A DNA stretch of 64,000 nt from an uncultured Granulosicoccaceae bacterium (GTDB lineage Bacteria > Pseudomonadota > Gammaproteobacteria > Granulosicoccales > Granulosicoccaceae): the NCBI GenBank assembly GCA_937920585.1, contig CAKZSB010000010.1:1-64000 (forward strand), read 5' to 3'. Made by a program: the position numbers and the translations under genes. This document shows, piece after piece, positions 1,904-7,678 of the stretch (position 1 is the first letter of the stretch; each line of letters opens with the position of its first letter). The notes under the pieces are model-generated. The model made no database searches. It had not been told where the DNA came from and was given only the letters and a program-made list of their open reading frames with translations.

Positions 1904-2581
1904 ATGGCTCAGGTTATCGTATCCGAAGCGTCCGACCACGCTGGCAGCACACCGGCAACACGCTCTTCTGATCCCTATCGATCGGTTCTCATGTTGCGAT
2001 TTGCACTGCTCAATGTGCTCGCCTTTGCGTTACTGGGTGCTGCGACCATTCAGGGTTACGTCGGGAAAGTACTGGAGGCCGACCAAACCTATCTGTCAGT
2101 GATTATTTTTATTGTGTTCCTCGCAGGACTCGCCATTTGTACCCATAAGGTATGGCAAACGAGCAACGAAATCGACGCGTTGAACGCGCCCGAAGGGATC
2201 AAATCTGCCGCGATCGCCCATTTGGTTCAGCGCGACCAGAACGGCGAACCCGCGATCCGCGACGGCTCTATGCGGTTGCGCCTCGCTCAACGTATCTCCG
2301 CCGTCCGCCACCTCGCGAACACGCTTGTACTGCTGGGCCTGATCGGCACCGTGCTCGGGTTCATCATTGCCTTGTCGGGTGTGAGCCCTGAGCAGGCGGC
2401 CGACGTGAATGCCATCGCTCCAATGGTGTCAACGCTGATTCGCGGCATGTCCACCGCGCTCTACACCACACTGATCGGATCTATTCTGAATGTCTGGCTG
2501 ATGGCCAACTTTCAGATTCTTTCCGGCGGAACTGTGCAGTTGATGGCGCGCTTGTCAGACCTGAGTCAGCAAGATGCGTGA
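1904..2581 (+). CDS. MotA/TolQ/ExbB-family proton channel protein
   Basis: Predicted inner-membrane stator subunit of a proton-driven motor. Four hydrophobic segments (about residues 28-53, 63-83, 137-158, 182-204) with a roughly 50-residue cytoplasmic loop between the second and third match the family topology. The signature is in helices 3 and 4, with GLIGTVLGFI and the Gly/Thr-rich ALYTTLIGS. At 225 residues it is about TolQ length. The ATG at 1904 follows a GAAGG ribosome site. It overlaps the next gene by 8 bp, and that gene encodes a one-helix protein with a MotB/ExbD-like Asp, so the two probably form a stator. It is not tolQ or exbB of the usual operons: no tolA, tolB, pal or tonB lies nearby. 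The driven process is unknown. Confidence 0.75.
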   Translation: MAQVIVSEASDHAGSTPATRSSDPYRSVLMLRFALLNVLAFALLGAATIQGYVGKVLEADQTYLSVIIFIVFLAGLAICTHKVWQTSNEIDALNAPEGIKSAAIAHLVQRDQNGEPAIRDGSMRLRLAQRISAVRHLANTLVLLGLIGTVLGFIIALSGVSPEQAADVNAIAPMVSTLIRGMSTALYTTLIGSILNVWLMANFQILSGGTVQLMARLSDLSQQDA

Positions 2582-3176
2582 ACTCGATCTGTTTGATGAA
2601 GACAGCAGCGCGACCCTGTTTCGCGATGTGATCATGCTGGCGCTGGCAGGGTTCGTCACGCTGGTGATGCTGCTTTTACCACATATCAATCCAAAGGCCC
2701 TCGCCGAGGAGGCGGCAAAATCCCCCGGCAATCTGACAGTGGAATTGCGCTGGCCGGACGATATCAATGCCGATGTCGACCTGTGGGTCGAGGCCCCCGG
2801 CGACCGGCCGGTCGGCTACTCGAACAAGGGCGGCCGGGTATTCAATCTGCTGCGCGACGACCTGGGTGACACAGCAGACCTCACCGGCCTTAATTACGAA
2901 TTCACCTACAGCCGGGGCGTACCGGAAGGCGAATATGCAGTCAATGTACACCTCTATCGCAATCCGGCGAAAACCTATCCGGTACCGGCTACGGTTGTCG
3001 TCAGTCTGAAGCGGCCGGGATCCAAGACCGCAAAGCAGATTCTGGTCAGCAAGCTGGAACTGACTCATCAGGGTGAAGAGGCGACTGTCTTTCGATTCAA
3101 TCTGGATGAAAAAGCGAGCCTTGTCAGCGGCAGCGTAAACAACCTGCCGAAAAAACTGCGGAATAAAAAGACATGA
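2574..3176 (+). CDS. ExbD/MotB-like one-helix protein with beta-rich periplasmic domain
   Basis: Probable partner of the upstream channel. One transmembrane helix (about residues 17-37) starts with RDVIMLALAGF, placing Asp18 where ExbD, TolR and MotB keep their proton-carrying Asp. The rest (about 50-200) should be periplasmic. It has no OmpA-type peptidoglycan-binding domain but contains a segment (VELRWPDDINADVDLWVEAP, then GYSN) resembling the start of DUF2135/YfaP-type beta-sandwich domains. It overlaps the previous gene by 8 bp and shares ATGA with the next. The DUF2135 resemblance is from memory and weak; the stator role is inferred from the helix, the Asp and the neighbour. Confidence 0.6.
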   Translation: MRELDLFDEDSSATLFRDVIMLALAGFVTLVMLLLPHINPKALAEEAAKSPGNLTVELRWPDDINADVDLWVEAPGDRPVGYSNKGGRVFNLLRDDLGDTADLTGLNYEFTYSRGVPEGEYAVNVHLYRNPAKTYPVPATVVVSLKRPGSKTAKQILVSKLELTHQGEEATVFRFNLDEKASLVSGSVNNLPKKLRNKKT

Positions 3177-3685
3177 ATCCGGTTCTGCTCTGGTTTGGCA
3201 CAGCGGCCCTGATTATCGGTGCGCTGGCCTCGATCGCGATCTGGTCGCCAAGAGATCGCAAAATCAAGCTCGGCGCGCTGGCTTGCGCCACTGCACTGCT
3301 ACCCGTTTGCTACTTCAGCCTCGACGATCTGCTCGGCAGACCCAAGGCAATCGACCTCGAAGCAGCCATCGGCTACACCGAGGAGGCGGCCGTACTTAGC
3401 TCGGTTGTCGAGGAAGACATTGCGATTTACCTGTGGCTGAAGCTTGAAGGTATCGACGAGCCTCGTTCATTTGAATTGCCGTGGAACAAGCAAATGGCTG
3501 TCGACCTGCATCAGGCGCAGCAACAGGCGGAAGCGGAAGGAACCAAGGTCAAGATGCGCCGGCCGACCGAAGATTCTCTGGATGACCAGGAACCGGTATT
3601 CTACGCTGCCGCTCAACCGGCACCGCCGCCAAAGCAGGCGCCGGACGAGAGTCCGCTGGTTTTCCAGGCAAGCCGACCGGACTAG
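3173..3685 (+). CDS. Unrecognised two-helix membrane protein of the channel operon
   Basis: I do not recognise this family. Residues 3-24 and 32-49 are hydrophobic, joined by a short basic loop (SPRDRK). About 120 soluble residues follow, containing YLWLKLEGIDEPRSFELPW and a Gln/Ala/Glu helix, then a Pro-rich tail (PAPPPKQAPDES). The ATGA overlap with the preceding gene means coupled translation, so it probably works with the two stator-like proteins as a third subunit or effector. If the short loop is cytoplasmic, the soluble part is periplasmic. Confidence 0.6.
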   Translation: MNPVLLWFGTAALIIGALASIAIWSPRDRKIKLGALACATALLPVCYFSLDDLLGRPKAIDLEAAIGYTEEAAVLSSVVEEDIAIYLWLKLEGIDEPRSFELPWNKQMAVDLHQAQQQAEAEGTKVKMRRPTEDSLDDQEPVFYAAAQPAPPPKQAPDESPLVFQASRPD

Positions 3686-4199: not shown

Positions 4200-5090
4200 C
4201 TAACGGGCTCCGACGGATACGCTGAACTGGTCGAGTACAAATTCCCCCTGCCCCCACCAGATTTCAGATCCGAATTCCAGCGAGCCGACACACCAATGGG
4301 GTTGCAATGGCTCCAGGCCCATCAAGGGTGCATTTTTTTGCGTCCATTCCAGAAAGGCATTCCAATCGAGCGAGCCACTGGTTTGCGTGTCTTCCAGCAC
4401 GAAGGCGATATAGCTGGTGGAGCGGGATGCATCGGCAAATACATACCACAATTGATCCTGAATCACTGCCATCGTCAGCGGCTCACGATAGGGGTATTTG
4501 TCACCCGCCTGTACCCACACCATCATTTCATAGACACGATTATCGCCGGCCGAATTGCCCGGCCCCTTGATATCGCAGCTTTCGTGAAGAAAGGACTCGG
4601 CGGCAACGTTGATCTCACGGTTGGCAGAACCCGATTCCCGATAGGCGTAGTTCATTGTCAGTCGGGGCAGACTGTCCAGCCGTTCCGGCAGGCCGGTTGC
4701 AGCCTTGTCGCCTGAAATCTCGATGCCGTGTTTATTGCCATAGATCACTTCTGGATAGGCTTTTACTGCCGATTGCTCGCCATCAATGCTGGCGAGCCAG
4801 TCGTATGACCAACCAACCGGCAATCTAAAACCGGCGCCCGATGCAGATCCATGGATACACTGTCGCCATTCATCGCTGTTTACTTTACCGCTGCCCCAGG
4901 TATTGTTGGACAACAGAATTGTTGGCCCGGCAACGCTTAAGGTATCCCAGCTTGCGCACTGGCTTTGCGTACCGGCAAGCAGCGCTGTGTCGGCGGCAAC
5001 TTGCTGCAAACACCCCGCTGCCAGCATGGCGGGAAACAACAGGCGCCTGATCACCACGGACTGCGCGGACAGGTTTAGCATGCTTTGCAT
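4200..5090 (-). CDS. Secreted GH12-like endoglucanase/xyloglucanase
   Basis: Predicted beta-1,4-glucan hydrolase exported from the cell. Residues 1-34 look like a signal peptide (basic IRR, hydrophobic core, AAGC then VAAD). A lipoprotein cleavage before Cys27 is possible but its lipobox is poor. GH12 hallmarks are visible: NNTWG near 62, WSYDW near 94-98, YEMMVWV with candidate nucleophile Glu188, and FGSEIWW with candidate acid/base Glu276. Length (296) suits one catalytic domain without a carbohydrate-binding module. The start lies 16 bp inside the upstream gene, so the two are coupled. Substrate (cellulose, xyloglucan or other beta-glucan) cannot be told from sequence. Confidence 0.75.
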   Translation of the reverse strand: MQSMLNLSAQSVVIRRLLFPAMLAAGCLQQVAADTALLAGTQSQCASWDTLSVAGPTILLSNNTWGSGKVNSDEWRQCIHGSASGAGFRLPVGWSYDWLASIDGEQSAVKAYPEVIYGNKHGIEISGDKAATGLPERLDSLPRLTMNYAYRESGSANREINVAAESFLHESCDIKGPGNSAGDNRVYEMMVWVQAGDKYPYREPLTMAVIQDQLWYVFADASRSTSYIAFVLEDTQTSGSLDWNAFLEWTQKNAPLMGLEPLQPHWCVGSLEFGSEIWWGQGEFVLDQFSVSVGAR

Positions 5091-6055
5091 TTTGTTTGCT
5101 CTTGAGCGTTTATCGTTCTGACAGAAACTGTGATTAATTGATCATCACGCGCTAGCAGCAGAGGCACTGACTGGCCGATCTGCGTGTTGTTCCAAAGCTT
5201 CTGATAAAGCTGATCGCGGCGGCGAACCCGTTGATTATCTATTGCGATGATTTCATCGCCGGGTCTGATATCGGCGTATCTCGAAGGCCCGGCCGGAACG
5301 GTTCCGAAAACAAGCAAATCAGCATCCACAGACAACCCCAGCCAGGGACGTTCGGAAGCGCTGGAGTGGCCGTGGATCAGCAACTCACCCATCACGTCGA
5401 TCAATTCGTCGATCGGTATGAACAGATTGCCAGCGGGCGACCGAGGCGCATTGTCCTCGACACTGGCCACACCGTAGGCGCCGATACCCAGCAGCCGCGA
5501 CTCTCTGTCAATCAATGCGGCGCCGCTGAAGTGCTGTCGCACTGGCGTGGTGCGCAGGGCATCGGCAAGAAAATACTCGGCGGCGCCTGAAAACGGTGCG
5601 CGCGAGACCAGCTCAACGGCACCCGCAGCGGTGCGGCCGCGGTAGTCGACCGCAAGCAGCCGCTGGCCCACTATCGCTGCGGACGCAGTACCGATTTCCA
5701 GCGCCAGCGTGCCGTTGGGCAGATCGGCGCGCAACAGTGCCAGACCGGAGGCGATGTCATGGGCTATTACACTCGCCGGCACTGCTTCGCCAGATTGAAA
5801 ATACAATGTGATATAGCGGGCGTGCAGCACCAGGTAGGCCGCGGTCACCAGCAGGCCATCGCCGCCAATGACAATCGCACTGCCCTGCCGTTCTGTGCCG
5901 AGCGAGGCCGCACTGGCCGCCGTTGCCGGCACGGCTGCGCGAAGCTCGACGATGCCGGTTAAAAATTCGTCGACATCAGGCTCTGCACTGACAGCGAGCG
6001 AACAAGCAATAAAGACTATTGCTGAAAGACAGCGAATTCGCCGTAACAAGCTCAA
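5075..6055 (-). CDS. HtrA/DegS-like pseudoprotease with PDZ domain
   Basis: Has the layout of an exported S1C protease: N-terminal signal or anchor (about 5-24), chymotrypsin-like domain (about 55-225) and a PDZ-like domain (about 235-315, with YADIRPGDEIIAIDNQRV). The catalytic sites are degraded. The usual TNAHVV reads TAAYLV (His replaced by Tyr74), the DLAVL Asp is Gly104, and GNSGGPL reads HFSGAAL, keeping Ser177 but not the following Gly. Proteolysis is therefore unlikely, and a binding or scaffold role is more plausible. TTG start, no strong ribosome site. It overlaps the GH12-like gene by 16 bp, suggesting the pair works together at the envelope. Confidence 0.7.
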   Translation of the reverse strand: MSLLRRIRCLSAIVFIACSLAVSAEPDVDEFLTGIVELRAAVPATAASAASLGTERQGSAIVIGGDGLLVTAAYLVLHARYITLYFQSGEAVPASVIAHDIASGLALLRADLPNGTLALEIGTASAAIVGQRLLAVDYRGRTAAGAVELVSRAPFSGAAEYFLADALRTTPVRQHFSGAALIDRESRLLGIGAYGVASVEDNAPRSPAGNLFIPIDELIDVMGELLIHGHSSASERPWLGLSVDADLLVFGTVPAGPSRYADIRPGDEIIAIDNQRVRRRDQLYQKLWNNTQIGQSVPLLLARDDQLITVSVRTINAQEQTKCKAC

Positions 6056-6173: not shown

Positions 6174-7460
6174 CTATCGATCAGATGGAGGATTGACCGC
6201 CGCTGGCGATGGTGCTTCCTCTGGCGCTGTAGTCTCGGGCTGAGGTGCTGCCACCGCGGGCACTTCATCCACTATACGCGTTGTGGGCTGACCCGGCGCA
6301 GACAAGGGTGCTACGGCAGCCCCGATCGCAGGTTCATCAACTGATGCCGGAGCTGTCGTGCCGTTGCCAGCGATGTTCGTTGCCGGCGGACCTGCCGAGA
6401 TTTGCGTATCGGCGAAATCTTCCAGCTCGCGCAGGTAGCCCAGCCGCTTGCCCGCCAGCGCCTCTTCACCCAATCCCGGCGAATGCGTGATGCGGTAATC
6501 CCATCCGAGTGCTCCGGCATAGCCGTTGTTATACCAGCTGCTCAGCATTTGCTCATGCGTGGCGTCACTCAAGCCCTCAACCGGATACTCACCCATGATC
6601 ATCGGCTTGTCGCCCATACCAAGTTCTGCAGGCGTGCGAGTGTAGGGCCAGTAGGCGTTGACCCAGTCATAGATGTGGATCTGGTAGAAATCGACATCAA
6701 GGTTGCGCCACGCCGGCGCCCATTTGATTGCCGCACTACCGATTGACAGCGGAATATCAGGCGTTGCTGCGCGCAAAACGCTAATGGTGTCGGCCAGAAA
6801 GACTTCCATCTGATCGTGCGTCACATGCTCGAGCTCAGCATTGGGATCGAAGTCCTGACCACCGTACTTGTCGGCTCCGGTCACGGCCCACTCAGGCTCA
6901 TTGATAACATCCCATGAATGCAGCGCATCGCGATGCGGGCTGGCCTGTAGCGCTTCGGCGAAGGGTCGCACGACGTTTTGCATCAGGCCTGCTCGGCGCT
7001 GGTCATCGATTACGATGTCGCGATAGCCTGTAGCCTGGATTCCGACCACATCGCGGCTGGGGCGAAAACCGTCGAACGAGAACAGACAGAACATGATCCG
7101 GACATTGGCGTTAGCGGCAAGCTCCAGGGCCTTGAGCCCGTCATCGATAGCTTGCTGGCCCAGTTGCTGTGGCACGCCGTTGCCGTCGAAAGTGATTGCC
7201 GTGGTCCAGAGCTCTGGCCAGACCCACCAGCGCACGACTTTTACACCGTGCTCGGCCATTTCGTTCAGCTCGCGGGCATAGCTGTCAGGATCTTGCGCGA
7301 CCCCCTTCTTGGCCCAAACGTCGTTGCCGCCGAAATCATTGGCAAAATGCTGCCAGGCGTAATTGATGCCAAAACTGAATTGCTCGCGCAACTCGGCAGC
7401 CTGAACAGAAACGCTGAGCATCACTGTAAAGACCAGTGAAAGCGCAGAAGTTTTGCGCAT
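6174..7460 (-). CDS. Secreted clan GH-A (GH5-like) glycoside hydrolase
   Basis: Predicted retaining beta-glycanase with a TIM barrel. The first 22 residues are a Sec signal peptide ending VQAAE. The acid/base Glu188 sits in WDVINEPEW and the nucleophile Glu291 in MIMGEYP, the standard spacing for GH5-type enzymes; the IHIYDW strand lies between. About 70 Pro/Ala/Thr-rich residues (356-428) form a tail with no visible carbohydrate-binding module. I chose the ATG at 7460 because GGAGAAAAAT precedes it; the longer TTG frame would start inside that ribosome site. The nearby GH12-like gene suggests joint attack on plant or algal beta-glucan or mannan. Family placement below clan level is uncertain. 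Confidence 0.75.
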   Translation of the reverse strand: MRKTSALSLVFTVMLSVSVQAAELREQFSFGINYAWQHFANDFGGNDVWAKKGVAQDPDSYARELNEMAEHGVKVVRWWVWPELWTTAITFDGNGVPQQLGQQAIDDGLKALELAANANVRIMFCLFSFDGFRPSRDVVGIQATGYRDIVIDDQRRAGLMQNVVRPFAEALQASPHRDALHSWDVINEPEWAVTGADKYGGQDFDPNAELEHVTHDQMEVFLADTISVLRAATPDIPLSIGSAAIKWAPAWRNLDVDFYQIHIYDWVNAYWPYTRTPAELGMGDKPMIMGEYPVEGLSDATHEQMLSSWYNNGYAGALGWDYRITHSPGLGEEALAGKRLGYLRELEDFADTQISAGPPATNIAGNGTTAPASVDEPAIGAAVAPLSAPGQPTTRIVDEVPAVAAPQPETTAPEEAPSPAAVNPPSDR

Positions 7461-7678
7461 ATTTTTCTCCAACCAATTGAAAACATGGTGGAGCGGCGAA
7501 CCAGATCTGACTGATCAGATGCCAGGAACTCATTCGCACTCCCCAACCGATAACAGCGTTAGCGGCAAAGGGCACGACAAACTTCAGAGAACCAAAGGCT
7601 TGCGATAATTGCAGAATGTAAAACTGTGAGCCTTGCGTGACGGAATCGTCAACGCCACGGCCAGGGTCGGGCGAATGC

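Follow-up and report, generated by a model that had tools for sequence, protein, structure and literature searches.

A divergent HtrA-like protein of an uncultured Granulosicoccaceae bacterium and the putative pseudoprotease family to which it belongs

The bacterial HtrA proteases DegP, DegQ, DegS and AlgW (MEROPS S1C; TIGR02037, TIGR02038) combine a trypsin-like domain with a C-terminal PDZ domain and carry an export signal. The protein family described here shares that architecture, its secreted branches share the export signal, and these proteases are its closest solved structures, but it differs from them in having lost the catalytic His and Asp in all members and the Ser in most, in the replacement of the oxyanion Gly, in forming a separate clade and in comprising several branches without a signal peptide. 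HtrA-type pseudoproteases are already known, and the present family adds another one. A 2008 survey of 91 genomes counted 42 inactive serine-protease homologues (PMC2605481). MamO is described as an HtrA-type pseudoprotease and metal binder that promotes MamE-dependent proteolysis without catalysis, with His116 and Asp149 in place, Thr225 replacing the Ser, and a TauE-like transporter domain (PMC4794232). It shares with the present family a degenerate triad, the lack of Gly at position 193 and an aromatic loop L1 residue (PMC4794232), whereas the member analysed in detail here (hereafter the window protein) has Tyr and Gly in place of His116 and Asp149 and ends after the PDZ domain, without a transporter domain. 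RsgI9 of Clostridium thermocellum is a membrane-bound anti-sigma factor that contains an NTF2-like domain; autocleavage is reported for it, and its protease-like domain is described as capable of cellulose binding (PMC12203970). Its ectodomain (PDB 7sjy), like the window protein, places an S1C-like domain in a polysaccharide-related setting; unlike RsgI, the window protein is without a cytosolic anti-sigma domain and a transmembrane helix (PMC12203970; Pfam). A literature search conducted largely without subscription journals found no description of this pseudo-HtrA family among the papers it listed.

The window analysed here is a stretch of 64,000 nucleotides from an uncultured Granulosicoccaceae bacterium, and it contains the following features.

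4200..5090, minus strand: GH12 endoglucanase-like gene, its start overlapping the pseudo-HtrA end
5075..5090, minus strand: ATGCAAAGCATGCTAA, the pseudo-HtrA stop overlapping two in-frame GH12 ATGs
5075..6055, minus strand: pseudo-HtrA gene, with signal-peptide-like residues 1-24, trypsin-like domain 58-191 and PDZ domain 249-313
6174..7472, minus strand: GH5 mannanase-like gene, directly upstream of the pseudo-HtrA gene across a 118-base gap

The pseudo-HtrA open reading frame comprises 326 codons with a TTG start and is open throughout, as the preliminary description of this DNA had stated, and its codon-position G+C (0.66/0.48/0.62) is similar to that of neighbouring genes. In the encoded 326 aa protein, residues 1-24 form a signal-peptide-like N-terminus, as judged by sequence and a hydrophobicity scan, and Pfam identifies a Trypsin_2 domain (PF13365) at residues 58-191 (52.3 bits against a cut-off of 27.6) and a PDZ_2 domain (PF13180) at residues 249-313 (37.9 bits against 27); the same search detected S1C and PDZ domains only, with no transmembrane or sigma/anti-sigma part. 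The closest solved structures by sequence are HtrA proteases (M. tuberculosis HtrA in the PDB, E 7.7e-16), and the first 50 Foldseek matches of an AlphaFold model built from three sequences, a poor model with a pLDDT of 56.7, are all HtrA/Deg proteins. The succession of Trypsin_2 and PDZ, together with these PDB and fold matches, places the protein in the S1C/HtrA fold and agrees with the fold markers and PDZ domain recorded initially. The RsgI9 ectodomain is also among the PDB matches (7sjy, E 7e-8); to our knowledge, RsgI9 has no PDZ domain. Against the curated NCBIfam models the window protein scores far under the cut-offs (57.8 versus 416.2 bits for TIGR02037 and 54.3 versus 422.95 bits for TIGR02038).

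An HMM alignment with other HtrAs places Tyr74 at the column of the catalytic His and Gly104 at that of the Asp, with the Ser kept as Ser177, leaving the window protein without the His-Asp-Ser triad of HtrA serine endopeptidases. Alignments with phmmer to solved HtrAs give the same assignments, and all 39 ordinary HtrAs aligned alongside, which came in with the same searches, have H-D-S at these columns. The His-to-Tyr and Asp-to-Gly substitutions named in the preliminary description are therefore borne out; its claim that the oxyanion Gly after Ser177 is Ala is not, since the local order is His175-Phe176-Ser177 followed by Gly178 and Ala179, so that the residue after Ser177 is a retained Gly. 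We take the oxyanion-hole Gly of trypsin-like enzymes to be chymotrypsin Gly193, two residues before the Ser, which corresponds to His175 in the window protein. Of the 39 HtrAs, 38 have Gly at this position, whereas 74 of 75 family members have another residue. Judged from the alignment, the oxyanion hole of the window protein is degenerate, though at His175 and not at the residue first named. We read the window protein as a putatively secreted, catalytically dead HtrA, that is, a predicted S1C non-peptidase homologue with one PDZ domain.

The window genome contains seven HtrA-like matches to the window protein: the protein itself, two strong matches (C244 and C438; 32-33% identity, E <1e-40) with the same Tyr and Gly, and four weak matches (L004, L005, L006 and L007; E 4e-8 and weaker), all with H-D-S. 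Across 143 genomes of relatives, strong matches end at 4e-36 and weak ones start at 5e-17. A profile built from 31 sequences widened this gap. The sampling as a whole covered Pseudomonadota and the stronger matches on plasmids. In the profile searches, family matches were present in six of 369 genomes of the window's class (E <=1.4e-87; next match 7e-34) and in 35 of 398 genomes of a phylum sample, all at E <=3.1e-87 (cut 1e-45) and with one copy per matching genome, the window's genome excepted. A third sample of 289 genomes, from the class of genome G446, yielded 65 genomes with family matches in 52 of 224 genera, including one partial match (G912, positions 2-176, E 5e-60); this class is probably Alphaproteobacteria, because the G446 protein and its Rhizobium gallicum counterpart (L107 and L072) share 86% identity. 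The three samples partly overlap, and each takes in the genome on which it was centred. The plasmid search located further members in rhizobia and azospirilla, and in RefSeq four members on rhizobial plasmids carry the name "S1C family serine protease" and one is named "signal protein PDZ". Scored with profile A1, of which its own sequence is a part, the window protein reaches 332 bits, against at most 135 for ordinary HtrAs, and thus falls in the upper score set that, together with Tyr and Gly at the His and Asp columns, delimits the family.

Residues were compared in 103 family sequences (75 plus 28), the further matches of the phylum and G446-class samples being counted by score alone. Site 74 is Tyr in 101 sequences, Phe in one and Asp in one (L058), and is never His; site 104 is Gly in all 103. 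Homologues sharing the substitutions thus exist, as the preliminary description had invited one to check, and no relative with an intact triad appears among the 103, so that its own proposed refutation fails for the family. Site 177 is more variable (Gly in 61, Ser in 25, Ala in 10, Thr in four and Gln in three); among the first 75 sequences, 21 keep Ser177 and the other 54 have Gly, Ala, Thr or Gln there, and the preceding residue is Trp or Phe in 71. A triad elsewhere in the chain was ruled out: no His occurs among the family columns conserved at 85% or more, which means that the family has no conserved displaced triad, and no relative has a catalytic His or Asp at 74 or 104. Sequencing error and a lone pseudogene were likewise ruled out as causes of the Tyr and Gly, because both are fixed in the family. 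Other near-invariant residues are specific to the family, namely Arg56, Glu78, Trp159-Glu160-Tyr161, Pro171, Leu194, Asn210 and Trp288 (the Glu78, Trp159 and Leu194 columns hold E, W and L in 74 of 75 sequences), as is a tail after the PDZ domain, S.DR..LK, whose end is fixed. The sequences show the change of His to Tyr and of Asp to Gly, with the gain of an aromatic residue in the oxyanion loop, to be the marks of a large, previously unlabelled pseudoprotease family; that it is a conserved pseudoprotease family is, in our judgement, nearly certain, and we infer from these columns that it is without proteolysis.

The structural comparisons covered a second member and the solved structures. An L009 model (pLDDT 69.1) aligns with DegP, DegQ and AlgW at Z 23-24 (up to 24.3) over about 260 residues; the full-length alignments have a high rmsd of about 10 A, which in this model probably reflects how the PDZ domain is placed, while its protease part superposes at 2.2-3.5 A over 178-196 residues (2.2 A over 178 for H. 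pylori HtrA). A profile search of the PDB revealed no solved structure within the family, the best being DegQ at 119 bits versus about 292 or more for members.

A tree of 51 family sequences (the 75 thinned at 80% identity) and 19 of the 39 HtrAs, with nine columns near the catalytic sites removed, separated the family from the HtrAs at 100/100 support; as inferred from these sequences, it is a split of the family from the sampled HtrAs and not a root position within all S1C. Estimates of dN/dS, finite for 164 of 182 close pairs (72-99.9% identity, none with the window protein), have a median of 0.13 and a range of 0.03-0.29, which indicates that the family is under purifying selection and plainly maintained. 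Clade A consists of the window protein, L011-L014 and L050 (support 95/84). Clades A and B have signal-peptide-like N-termini, and clade B proteins are about 390 aa long with an acidic C-terminus. Clade C and many alphaproteobacterial members start directly before the domain and look cytosolic from their sequences; other alphaproteobacterial members have hydrophobic leaders. The Rhizobium, Neorhizobium and Phyllobacterium plasmid genes belong to the same family, with Tyr, Gly and W-G-G replacing H, D and N-S-G, but unlike the window protein they encode apparently cytosolic forms, whose start codon abuts the domain and which keep a ...LKxPxLQ tail. Among L169-L195, secreted alphaproteobacterial C-termini are often aromatic-ended (...LKxxxSY/TY) and cytosolic ones end in ...LKxPxLH/Q/N. 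Recognition of the family's own C-termini by the PDZ domain is possible. A broader evolutionary picture can be put forward tentatively: the family would be a deep common HtrA branch in which proteolysis was lost once and the fold was rebuilt as a binding protein with a site of its own (GY...EA / D..SG / WEY / W-G-G-A / conserved C-terminal tail), in secreted and cytosolic forms, the latter with a cytosolic HtrA-PDZ fold, and in which the PDZ domain may read its own or a partner's C-terminal tail.

Downstream of the pseudo-HtrA gene, the GH12-like protein matches PF01670 at 42.5 bits (cut-off 27) and the endo-beta-1,4-glucanase 2jem in the PDB (E 5e-8). Its first ATG lies 16 bases within the pseudo-HtrA ORF end, and a second in-frame ATG forms an ATGCTAA overlap with the stop, an arrangement that suggests translational coupling. 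The coupling to a GH12-like glucanase gene proposed in the preliminary description thus holds for the window, where the start overlaps, but not elsewhere, as none of the five other clade-A members has it. The GH12 protein has no match in the 37 other loci searched, and GH12 was on that count rejected as a conserved partner. Genome-wide, GH12-like genes are strongly expanded in the window genome, with 11 matches, and in the neighbouring genus g4, where all 14 genomes have 5-17 each; the 33 other family genomes searched have none.

Upstream, the GH5-like protein matches the endo-mannosidase 2c0h (E 7e-19) in the PDB and has no Pfam match even at E 1. A GH5 mannanase-like gene adjoins the pseudo-HtrA gene in all six clade-A loci (relatives 55-66% identical to the window's), on the same strand in five and divergent in L043. 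Synteny reaches DUF445 and ABC-transporter genes in four of the six, so that the GH5 adjacency is partly plain gene-order conservation. Within g4, several of whose genomes are incomplete, 13 of 14 genomes carry GH5-like genes and five of 14 carry clade A, the clade-A pseudo-HtrA being missing in eight of the 13 with GH5-like genes; in view of these eight genomes and of the unrelated genes within the synteny, the link to glycanases may reflect nothing more than gene order. Elsewhere in the window (1904-3685), a MotA/ExbB-like gene precedes two genes with no Pfam match reaching the cut-off, and L040 and L043 keep this block next to their clade-A locus.

The wider neighbourhoods are varied, in counts that leave out 17 loci whose family gene was missed in gene picking. 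In the alphaproteobacterial neighbourhoods, shared partners are confined to a few rhizobia, which have DUF992 and glycerate kinase genes: the rhizobial cytosolic members of L068, L070 and L073 are flanked by a DUF992 gene (hypothetical in L073) on one side and a glycerate kinase/hydroxypyruvate reductase gene on the other, with pca genes near those of L068 and L070. Clade-B genes (L058 7545-8945 and relatives) adjoin a gene for a secreted repeat protein of about 470 aa that has PG_binding_1 at its end; DUF1508, CAP and GGDEF genes are also in the vicinity. In a gammaproteobacterial MAG, the family member (L008 4860-5897) directly follows two glutamate synthase-like genes, which are presumably gltB and gltD.

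Whether the gene is "kept as a pseudoprotease", as the preliminary description held, has to be answered separately for the family and for the copy in the window. For the family the claim stands, given the loss of His and Asp in all 103 sequences and the low dN/dS range; for the window copy it is weaker. The window protein has no close relative (40% identity to the nearest and 30-40% to relatives overall) and the longest branch among family rows (1.59 versus a median of 0.47). It deviates at six of 38 positions conserved at 95% in the others (family median 0; only L160 deviates more, at 7 of 39), including Glu78 to His, Trp159 to Ala and Leu194 to Tyr, and it is without the conserved C-terminal S.DR..LK tail, its last codons overlapping the GH12 start instead. 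The copy is either specialised or relaxing, and it may be on its way out. That it is a decaying gene within an otherwise functional family strikes us as unlikely: the long end branch, the altered conserved positions, the lost tail and the absence of clade A from nine of 14 genomes of the neighbouring genus speak for decay, but the 326-codon frame is still intact despite the distance to every relative, its codon-position G+C is like that of neighbouring genes, and the copy is coupled to an intact GH12 frame.

In the explanation we favour, the window protein would work without cutting: its PDZ domain and blocked protease groove would bind exported proteins at unfolded or C-terminal segments and hold or escort them, and clients in the window genome could be the co-encoded secreted GH5/GH12 glycanases. 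As a whole, this account of a secreted dead HtrA from a divergent pseudoprotease family acting as a non-cutting holder or escort seems to us almost as probable as not. A holdase or escort function is the most likely role by analogy with inactivated HtrAs, which are reported to keep proteins from aggregating in vitro and to rescue stress phenotypes (PMC11642142), and with an inactive HtrA that gave higher amylase yield in B. subtilis (PMC10715036); we advance it with some reserve. A role specific to glycanases, to which gene order points, is doubtful, and no one client class fits all members, since many of them are cytosolic or have different gene neighbours.

Other readings of the same protein deserve weighing against a holder or escort. 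It could be a ligand sensor whose dead S1C groove binds a glycan or small ligand and reports it, as proposed for RsgI9: the 7sjy match, the cellulose binding described for the RsgI9 protease-like domain (PMC12203970), the GH5 and GH12 neighbours and the GGDEF gene and PG_binding_1 protein adjoining clade B fit such a function, but the window protein has no transmembrane or sigma/anti-sigma part according to Pfam, cytosolic members would not meet extracellular glycans, and RsgI9 itself is reported with autocleavage (PMC12203970), all of which makes us regard a sensor as rather improbable. An adaptor or partner that switches on or aims an active HtrA, as MamO does for MamE, would suit the four H-D-S HtrAs of the window genome and the MamO-like non-Gly at 193 (74/75) and aromatic residue in loop L1, with MamO reported to promote MamE-dependent proteolysis non-catalytically (PMC4794232). 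No active HtrA gene, however, adjoins the pseudo-HtrA gene within the window's first 12 kb, and cytosolic members could not meet periplasmic HtrAs; we consider this reading more improbable still. Catalysis by a displaced triad or by Ser alone would be compatible with the Ser177 kept in the window protein and in 21 of 75 family sequences, yet the Ser is replaced in the other 54, no conserved column supplies a His, His and Asp are lost in all 103 sequences and the oxyanion Gly in 74 of 75, and we regard retained proteolysis as extremely improbable.

Annotation pipelines name members of this family serine proteases, while the whole family is without the cutting machinery. A natural non-catalytic HtrA lineage would test the disputed non-proteolytic roles of HtrA proteins as chaperone, sensor or adaptor, and the occurrence of members in culturable, sequenced rhizobia and azospirilla, together with the single copy per matching genome in the phylum sample (the window's genome excepted), makes the question genetically testable.
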